This document shows, piece after piece, positions 26,135-54,849 of a stretch of DNA of 64,000 nt. Position 1 is the stretch's first letter. Every line of letters begins with the position of its first letter. The DNA is from Drouetiella hepatica Uher 2000/2452 (lineage in GTDB: Bacteria > Cyanobacteriota > Cyanobacteriia > Elainellales > Elainellaceae), in NCBI GenBank assembly GCA_019359505.1, contig JAHHHD010000005.1, positions 124,001 through 188,000 of the forward strand, given 5' to 3'. Position numbers and translations under genes: made by a program. Under the pieces are notes generated by a model. The model saw only the letters and a program-made list of their open reading frames with translations, had not been told where the DNA came from and did not search any database.

Positions 26135-26189
26135 TCAAAATTGAGCAAAACTCTCCTGATCCAGTAAAAACCCTTAGGTATAAGGGAGT

Positions 26190-26240
26190 GGTAGATGCAC
26201 CCTGATAAATCCCTGGCTTCTGGTCGGGGATTTTTATTTT
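26190..26240 (+). ncRNA. Candidate small RNA, copy 1 of 3
   Basis: A 17-nt stretch GGTAGATGCACCCTGAT is followed by a terminator hairpin (26208-26232, AATCCCTGGC pairing with GTCGGGGATT-type arm, loop TTCTG) and a T-rich tail, giving about 50 nt. A TATAAG -10-like box at 26179-26184 would start transcription at or near 26190. The sequence is repeated 131 bp downstream and again at 53858. There is no start codon in a useful context. I cannot assign it to a named family. Confidence 0.65.
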
Positions 26241-26320
26241 CTCTGTGCAGTCAAACAGAATTCTTGCTTTACAACTCTATTTTTTCCTGATTTCATCCCT
26301 GCCTATAGGTATAAAGGAAT

Positions 26321-26368
26321 GGTAGATGCACCCTGATAAATCCCTGGCTTCTGGTCGGGGATTTTTTG
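26321..26368 (+). ncRNA. Candidate small RNA, copy 2 of 3
   Basis: The block from the -10-like TATAAA (26310-26315) to the hairpin and T run is nearly identical to copy 1, displaced by 131 bp. The upstream half of the spacer is unrelated. Only the putative promoter and transcript are duplicated, which supports a functional transcription unit. Confidence 0.65.
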
Positions 26369-26414
26369 TTGTGTGGTAAATTTTATACCTATTTTCGTGC
26401 CAGCATTGCTCAGA

Positions 26415-26500
26415 TATGGCGCTACGCGCTGAGAGCCAATGAGTTATTTTTTTGAGTTGTTTTTTGAGAACCGCGCTCCGCGCGGTTCTCAAAAAACAAC
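26415..26500 (-). repeat. Family B palindromic element, inverted copy
   Basis: On the plus strand TATGGCGCTACGCGCTGAGAG gives the right end of family B in inverted orientation. The core arms GTTGTTTTTTGAGAACCGCGC and their complement surround the loop TCC. The outer left end has lost similarity. Confidence 0.75.
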
Positions 26501-52918: not shown

Positions 52919-53707
52919 TTAGGCAGGACGAAACAGGTGAGAGTGGGAAGGACTATAGAGATGCGATCGCCCTTCCCCCGCTGCCGAAGCCTGCATTGCC
53001 GGACTAATCACGTACAGCGTGGTGCGCATCAGATCTTCCTGATGCGTCACAGCCGCCATCTGGCTCAGAGGCACAATCCGGATTTTCTCATCTGACCAGC
53101 CCAGCCGAAAACAGATGGCGATCGGCAAATCTGCCGGGTAATGCAGCAGCAGTTTGGCTTGAGCCGACTGCACATGCTTGGCGCTCAGGTAAAGACACAG
53201 ACTTGCCTGATGAGCCGCCAACGCCGAAAGCTCTTCGGCTTCGGGCACCTGCGTCCGTCCGCTGATCCGCGTCAAAATTAGGGTCTGTACCAATCCCGGC
53301 ACAGTCAGCTCTAGCTTAAGCTTTGCTGCCGCCAGCTGAAAGGCGCTGATGCCCGGAACCACCTCAAAGGAGATACCTGCTGCCGCCAGCATCTGCATCT
53401 GCTCATGCACGGCGCTATAGAGGCTCGGATCGCCTGAGTGGAGGCGAACGACGAGTTTTTGCGATCGCACCCGCTCCACCATCAGCGGCAAAATTTCCTC
53501 TAGAGTCTTGTCTGCCGTGGGAATTAGTTCTGCGTCCGGACGCGCCATCTGCAAAATTTCACGGGGCACCAGAGAGTCGGCAAACAAAATTACATCTGCC
53601 CGTACCAGCAGCTTTTGCGCTTTTACGGTCAACAGATCCGGATCACCGGGGCCAGCTCCAACAATGTATAGAGGCGGCACAAAATTTACTGACTCTAGCA
53701 ATGGCAT
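52919..53707 (-). CDS. cobM: Precorrin-4 C(11)-methyltransferase
   Basis: CobM/CbiF uses SAM to methylate C-11 in corrin ring (cobalamin) synthesis. The 262 residues show the tetrapyrrole-methylase pattern VPPLYIVGAGPGDPDLLTVKAQ, the ADVILFADSLVP segment, and the cofactor loop RLHSGDPSLYSAVHEQM, followed by VVPGISAFQLAAA and CLYLSAKH. No other cob or cbi gene is adjacent and no cobalamin riboswitch is visible upstream. It is convergent with the CBCR kinase gene, with a family A element between them. Confidence 0.93.
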   Translation of the reverse strand: MPLLESVNFVPPLYIVGAGPGDPDLLTVKAQKLLVRADVILFADSLVPREILQMARPDAELIPTADKTLEEILPLMVERVRSQKLVVRLHSGDPSLYSAVHEQMQMLAAAGISFEVVPGISAFQLAAAKLKLELTVPGLVQTLILTRISGRTQVPEAEELSALAAHQASLCLYLSAKHVQSAQAKLLLHYPADLPIAICFRLGWSDEKIRIVPLSQMAAVTHQEDLMRTTLYVISPAMQASAAGEGRSHLYSPSHSHLFRPA

Positions 53708-53857
53708 TTACGTAATCTCAACGACATGCTGATGTGGGCAATGATCGTTCTTAAACTAAAATCCGTAGAAACTTCTAAAATCCGGTAAGAAATTTAAAGG
53801 ATTCATGAATTGCCTAAGTGAATCCGGACATCTCCTGAATCTTGAGTAAAAGTGGAT

Positions 53858-53907
53858 GGTAGATGCACCCTGATTCAAGCCCCAGAGGAAACTCTGGGGT
53901 TTTTTTT
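53858..53907 (+). ncRNA. Candidate small RNA, copy 3 of 3
   Basis: The same 17-nt GGTAGATGCACCCTGAT as at 26190 and 26321 is followed by an unrelated hairpin, CCCCAGAG-GAAA-CTCTGGGG, and eight T. A TAAAAG box (53847-53852) sits at the same distance as in the other copies. It lies 25 bp beyond the convergent lgt stop and 150 bp upstream of cobM on the opposite strand. Confidence 0.65.
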
Positions 53908-53931
53908 CAACAAGAACCAGATGCCTTTTCC

Positions 53932-54849
53932 CTAAGTTTTATCAGAATCGGCGATCGCTCCACTCCTTCTCTCTTCATCTCTCGTCAGATCTGGCAAAGG
54001 GCGACGCAATCCATAAAGCCAGATCAGCCCGATTGTTCCAAGCGATACACCGATCAGGCTGATGGCTTGCGCAGTACGGATAGGACCAAACATTAAGCTA
54101 TCCATCCGCAGTCCTTCAATCCAAAACCGCCCCAAGCTATAGACAATGAGGTAAACCAAGAACAAAGTGCCAACTTTTGGGTGCATGACCGAATCTCCTT
54201 TGGCGCGCCGCAGTCCTCGAAAAAACAGCGTCATCAGCAGCACAAATACCCCCACATCCCAAAGCGACTCATACAGAAACGTGGGATGAAAGTAATCAAA
54301 CTGGGCGTATCCTGGCGGACGCTGAGCCGGGGGAATGTAGAGTCTCCAGGGTAAATCTGTTGGACGACCAAACGCCTCAGAGTTGAAGAAATTTCCCCAC
54401 CGTCCGATCGCTTGTCCCAAAATTAGAGAGGGCGCTACCAGATCGGCAAGCTGCCAGAAAGAAACTTTGTTCAGCCGCGAAAAAATCAGGGTGGCGATCG
54501 TCCCACCCAAAATTGCGCCATGAATCGCAATGCCGCCGTGCCAGATGGCAAAAATTTCTTCTGGACGCTGAGCATAGCTTTTCCACTCAAACGCCACGTA
54601 ATACAGCCGTGCCGCAGGAATGGCGGCTACCACCAGCCAAATCACCAGATCGCCAATCAAATCGGGGTTCACGCCGCGTCGCTTTGCCAGATAGGTGGAC
54701 AAGCTCACCCCAATCAGCACAGCAGAAGCAATGAGTAACCCGTACCATCGCAGAGTTAGAAATCCCCAATCCACCAGAATCGGCCCTGGAGAGGAGAATT
54801 GAGCCAGGAAGAAGGTCGGCAAAGCGGCGGATAAATAAGCTAAAAGCAA
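53932..54849 (-). CDS. lgt: Prolipoprotein diacylglyceryl transferase
   Basis: Lgt transfers diacylglycerol from phosphatidylglycerol to the lipobox cysteine of lipoproteins, at the plasma membrane. The 305 residues have about seven helices; conserved parts are [33 protein letters not shown] with its essential HGG and His, [18 protein letters not shown], and a C-terminal [15 protein letters not shown] slightly long C-terminal tail (about 280-305) is charged. It serves the several lipoproteins in this window, among others. It is not co-transcribed with them. Confidence 0.96.

Follow-up and report, generated by a model that had tools for sequence, protein, structure and literature searches.

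NsiR1 small-RNA genes and their constant 17-nucleotide 5′ segment accompany HetR in cyanobacterial genomes

The 64,000-nucleotide stretch of the Drouetiella hepatica Uher 2000/2452 genome that we analyzed (hereafter, the window) contains three copies of one 17-mer, GGTAGATGCACCCTGAT, and the hairpin that follows the third copy differs from those that follow the others. What kind of element repeats so short a segment exactly while changing what comes after it? This pattern, which an earlier note on this DNA had pointed out, was confirmed at positions 26190, 26321 and 53858. When as many as 3 mismatches are allowed, these 3 are the only matches in the window, compared with a mean of 0.12 in shuffled sequences, none of 100 of which reached 3. 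Genome-wide, the 17-mer occurs 5 times exactly and 8 times when 2 mismatches are tolerated, and a reversed control pattern gave 0.

A scan of the window against Rfam at curated scores returned RNase P RNA and three matches to NsiR1 (RF02399), four in all. Because all three copies exceed the RF02399 cut-off of 39 bits (55, 49 and 47.6 bits), the element is already named, as the earlier note had suspected it might be. Copy 3, the best scoring at 55 bits, is an sRNA gene of ~51 nt on the forward strand (53857–53908). The constant 5′ segment, its candidate seed, occupies 53858–53874 (+), and the terminator (53880–53907, +) consists of CCCCAGAG (53880–53887), a short loop, CTCTGGGG (53892–53899) and eight T residues. 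Upstream on the same strand, the DIF1 motif TCCGGA (53823–53828) begins 35 nt 5′ of the 17-mer, and the likely −10 region, GTAAAAGT (53846–53853), reads GTAAA[AG]GT in orthologous copies; the position of the transcription start site of copy 3 is one that we infer. Copies 1 (26189–26238, +, 47.6 bits, exact 17-mer at 26190–26206) and 2 (26320–26369, +, 49 bits, exact 17-mer at 26321–26337) are each preceded, 36 nt 5′ of the 17-mer, by the DIF1-like motif TCCTGA (26154–26159 and 26285–26290, both +), one mismatch away from the motif of copy 3. Their hairpins are of the CCCTGGCTTCTGGTCGGGGA type and differ from that of copy 3. A palindrome, GAGAACCGCGCTCCGCGCGGTTCTC, also lies between T and A runs at 26460–26497, 3′ of this pair. 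The genome as a whole (6.42 Mb, 87 contigs, 99.8% complete) contains six NsiR1 genes above the cut-off. At the window loci, the copies adjoin DUF3598 and cobM/lgt genes, not hetF: copy 3 is flanked by cobM (precorrin-4 C11-methyltransferase; 52919–53707, −; TIGR01465, 315 bits) and lgt (prolipoprotein diacylglyceryl transferase; 53932–54849, −; TIGR00544, 256 bits).

The element had been proposed to be the seed of a small RNA, that is, a constant unpaired 5′ segment followed by a freely varying terminator. The first half of that description stands. Among 29 family loci selected by Rfam score, independently of the 17-mer, the 17-mer is exact in 28, and in folding predictions the mean unpaired probability of AGAUGCACCCUGAU is 0.70–0.76, the NsiR1 copies folding with a weak 3-bp GGU/ACC stem. 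In a set of 212 distinct copies chosen by the exact 17-mer, where exactness of the seed is partly an effect of that selection, the upstream region is constant only at −36 to −31, −12 to −10, −8, −3 and −1. The second half of the description needs revision, since the hairpin type of copy 3 is kept along with its locus. Eight relatives (G003, G006, G007, G010, G011, G012, G032 and G033) share the arrangement of an NsiR1 gene between cobM and lgt, on the opposite strand to both, and in all of these GTAGATGCACCCTGATTCA, CCGGA near −35 and a CCCC(A/G)GAG-type hairpin persist. Two of these relatives, G032 and G033, have a second NsiR1 copy at this locus with a ATCCTGGAG-type hairpin. For G006, a candidate orthologue of copy 3 at C32:32630 was rejected, the true one being at C73:194782. 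The tandem pair at DUF3598 is kept in G006 and G007. Given that the hairpin type is kept within a locus and differs between paralogous loci, the terminators are locus-specific rather than free to vary.

NsiR1 is tied to heterocysts in the accounts of it accessible to us (PMC9045159, PMC8406250, PMC4734099, PMC9170634), and its distribution among genomes follows HetR. All 36 genomes searched in the host's family contain it. Among 291 genomes from across the class, NsiR1 was found above the cut-off in 152 (RF02399 matches under the cut-off, seen in eight genomes, being scored as absence), HetR in 150 and nifH in 85 (84 above the curated cut-off; the larger number was used in the table). NsiR1 and HetR occur together in 148 genomes, NsiR1 only in 4, HetR only in 2 and neither in 137 (phi 0.96), compared with a phi of 0.19 for NsiR1 and nifH; these and the co-occurrence figures below are species counts and not independent events. 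NsiR1 and HetR are found without nifH in 92 of the genomes. The genomes with only NsiR1 are G041, G056, G251 and G122, and those with only HetR are G184 and G247. In G041, G056 and G251, which are 99, 99 and 98% complete, NsiR1 copies with DIF1-like motifs are present without a HetR match, which implies either that HetR is not strictly needed for NsiR1 to be retained or that it is missing from the assemblies. The fourth, G122, is 62% complete; it has 17 RF02399 matches at E ≤ 0.001 that form several arrays, and in the 4 copies read the seed ends in CTGAC, not CTGAT. In an E. coli control, a match to RF02399 passed E ≤ 0.001 without reaching the cut-off. In the portions of the literature that we could consult we found no survey of NsiR1 in non-heterocystous cyanobacteria, and the founding 2010 paper might contain some of this information.

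TCCGGA at −35 is the motif known as DIF1, and exchanging it is reported to abolish the heterocyst-specificity of the nsiR1 promoter (PMC6133370); DIF1 is also reported to make hetR, patS and patX dependent on HetZ (PMC7377430). We tallied TCCnGA at −39 to −28, excluding copies near locus ends. It is present in 72 of 81 NsiR1 copies from loci classed as non-heterocystous by name, a class that rests on missing nifH and, for named loci, on the genus name. For heterocystous loci the count is 63 of 90 copies, or 83 of 90 when TCCGG or CCGGA is included, and for records of doubtful class, tallied apart, it is 25 of 27; in control stretches of the same length the count was 0 to 3. The host itself has one HetR gene and no nifH above the cut-off (best match 220.9 bits vs. 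394), and the same-genus genome G006 does have nifH. At the host's hetR locus (L133), a patX-like frame encoding RGSGR (about 670) precedes hetR (1288–2241), and TCCTGA lies upstream (501–506), an arrangement that resembles the patX–hetR pair with a predicted DIF1 promoter described for the non-heterocystous Leptolyngbya BL0902 (PMC11298460). With HetR and a patX-like frame and no detectable nifH, the host has the HetR circuit in a setting where one would not expect nitrogen fixation in heterocysts.

The window's repeated 17-mer is most likely explained by antisense sRNAs that act in trans and belong to an ancestral HetR/DIF1 circuit. We are fairly confident that copy 3 is one of six NsiR1 genes from which, in a HetR-containing host without detectable nifH, a DIF1-driven RNA of ~51 nt would be made whose seed pairs with mRNAs. 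By analogy with Nostoc, the DIF1-type promoter, which is switched on there via HetR and then HetZ, would drive transcription of this RNA up to its strong terminator. The constant, largely unpaired 5′ segment would then pair with target mRNAs, blocking translation in the manner of Nostoc NsiR1, which is reported to repress hetF and alr3234, the latter at its start codon (PMC9045159). Several copies with a common seed would raise the dose.

We weighed three other readings against this one. Copy 3 might act mainly in cis, as an antisense RNA or a transcription block for the lgt/cobM pair, much as NsiR1.1 acts on the hetF leader in Nostoc, and its position between these two genes and opposite to both, in the host and 8 relatives, is what such a role would call for. 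The other copies, however, carry the same seed at other loci, and the most constant part of copy 3 is that seed, with nothing specific to cobM or lgt, so we regard a mainly cis role as unlikely. That the copies are many and scattered could also mean that they are a dispersed, terminator-bearing repeat without regulatory function; since the promoter motif and seed are kept although paralogous hairpins diverge, the loci are conserved and the link to HetR is close, we consider this very improbable, and an artefact of a lone repeat or terminator was rejected on the conservation of promoter motif and locus. Least probable of all, to our minds, is that the 17-mer is not a pairing seed but the start of a micropeptide, as the ATG within the constant segment (ATG CAC CCT GAT) might suggest. 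Over the 212 copies the lengths of such frames scatter, most often at 5, 8, 4 or 9 residues with 49 frames open to the end of the sequence read, the residues after MHPD vary, and the bases 5′ of the ATG are just as constant (28 of 29 exact in the loci chosen without the 17-mer); the scattered frame lengths led us to reject it.

The complement of the seed, CATCAGGGTGCATCTAC, was searched for in the genus (4 genomes), with at most 3 mismatches allowed. Of the 66 sites obtained, 24 are by our count the RNA genes themselves, leaving 42 vs. 14 for the reversed pattern, an excess that may reflect word composition. All 42 were read, and no convincing target was found among them in these four genomes: 33 fall inside an open frame or on the strand opposite one. 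The sole site that recurs at a start codon, in 2 of the 4 genomes (G000, the host, and G007; L410 793–809 and L444 714–730), spans the start codon of orthologous short frames and has two mismatches in the central GGG; the frame after these is one that we take to be HicB-like. Other recurrent sites fall in conserved coding sequence. The remaining seven (L412, L418, L419, L420, L422, L431 and L432) were each found in one genome, those at L418 and L420 lying nearest to a possible start.

In the two genomes with HetR only, and in G271, the weak RF02399 matches turned out to be a different RNA, which we call the sibling. It begins (A/T/C)GTAGATGCACCCTGATG and continues into a hairpin that opens with GGGAGAG or similar and closes with CTCTCC. 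The host's own copy lies outside the window on the reverse strand (G000:C5:183235–183285; L012 1467–1517); microRNA models match, below their cut-offs, a long, near-perfect inverted repeat that adjoins it (L012 1267–1353) and that may be a small mobile element. A strict sibling pattern was found in 59 of the 291 genomes (none for the reversed pattern), and a covariance model of the sibling matched 144 of 291 at E ≤ 1e-6, usually as a single copy; 12 of these genomes were counted by model match alone. At 12 sibling loci scored with the NsiR1 model, 11 gave 27.6–35.5 bits and one (L319, E 0.5) had no match listed; these scores fall below the RF02399 gathering score of 39, which explains why the sibling is not filed as NsiR1. 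With the sibling model, conversely, NsiR1 copies reach at most 26.7 bits and four siblings score 51.6–69.4, so the two are unlikely to have been confused in the 12 genomes counted by model alone. A site of intermediate score (34.4 bits with the sibling model) lies beside the sibling in L287.

Like NsiR1, the sibling accompanies HetR: 139 genomes have both, 5 the sibling only, 11 HetR only and 136 neither (phi 0.89). In 83 of the 128 genomes in which its neighbours were checked, it follows gatB directly and in the same orientation, and short flanks may hide more; argJ is next after it in 31 genomes, including G071. The host's own copy is not beside gatB. This conserved position argues for one old gene. 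In one genome (G177:C39:445–1483; L245), four sibling copies, each with its own HetR-type box, lie within about 1 kb. In the literature text accessible to us we found no described HetR-controlled sRNA that fits the sibling; PMC4734099 describes the HetR-dependent NsiR8 and NsiR9 (171 and 122 nt) and a ~51-nt sRNA, 4547237r, without giving their sequences in the text.

The two RNAs differ upstream of the shared seed. We compiled 140 distinct sibling copies, 58 by pattern search and 82 with a model built on 44 of those; their first 18 bases are conserved partly by this selection, and the upstream box was part of neither search. GGG-N5-CCC is found at −40 to −38 in 127 of the 140, compared with 0–3 of 139–140 in nine displaced stretches and 0.5% in shuffles. 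Such a box is present in just 1 of 212 NsiR1 copies and so belongs to the sibling, and TCCnGA, found in 170 of 212 NsiR1 copies, is present in 0 of 140 sibling copies. HetR–DNA complexes are reported to require GGGnnnnnCCC, the hetP site being GAGGGGTCTAACCCCTC (PMC4192349), and the sibling's GGGG-N5-CCCC box, matching the HetR-recognition form of the hetP and hetZ sites, is a candidate HetR site. The box is no proof of HetR control, because replacing GGGN5CCC upstream of hetR is reported to have left hetR expression unchanged (PMC7377430) and gel shifts are reported to have failed for newly predicted HetR sites (PMC4192349). Three of the 13 boxless copies (G071, G271 and G275) are from genomes without a HetR match, 7 are from one family, f32, which is rich in NsiR1 arrays, and the rest are L216, L296 and L308. 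In f32, the box is degraded in 7 of 11 sibling loci read (L279, L281, L282 and L284–L287), gatB is beside the sibling in 10 of 11, and the genomes have 2–13 NsiR1 copies each. In G041 and G122, which have no HetR match, the box is kept, which points to a hetR that was lost recently or is missing.

The window element, then, belongs to a known family and is found here in a setting that one would not guess from the name, and what is of interest is the pattern around the seed, beyond this one element. We tentatively propose, giving it somewhat less than an even chance, that an ancient pair of sRNAs under HetR control, older than heterocysts, has the 17-mer as its common targeting end, with the sibling controlled directly and NsiR1 later. 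A "mother" sRNA, as a rule present once per genome and in most cases next to gatB, would be driven directly by a HetR site, and the DIF1-driven NsiR1 copies would amplify the common seed later in the cascade, at the HetZ step. With a common seed behind both promoters, the seed would report HetR activity twice. The boxless mother sRNAs of the three genomes with no HetR match (G071, G271 and G275) look as though an RNA that already existed had come under HetR control. If this proposal is correct, filamentous cyanobacteria generally would have a two-step feed-forward output. What hetR and patX do in species that lack heterocysts is described as a question said to "remain a mystery" (PMC11298460); if NsiR1 and the sibling are standard HetR outputs outside heterocystous species, that question becomes testable, and "heterocyst-specific sRNA" would describe how Nostoc uses NsiR1, not where it came from. 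We did not find a two-promoter, shared-seed arrangement described in the parts of the literature available to us.

Among known systems, the host's genes are most readily compared with NsiR1 of Nostoc (Anabaena) sp. PCC 7120, with which they share the sequence and structure model, the 5′ segment, the terminator, a length of ~60 nt, DIF1 at −35 and the presence of multiple copies. In PCC 7120, NsiR1 is described as heterocyst-specific; its 12 copies stand in tandem upstream of hetF, and the one closest to that gene is antisense to it, whereas the host has six copies, one tandem pair plus singles, with copy 3 at cobM/lgt and no detectable nifH. The nearest precedent for this setting is RNA162 of Limnospira indica PCC 8005, described, for that one genome, as a 57-nt NsiR1-like RNA in an organism that forms no heterocysts (PMC8400943).
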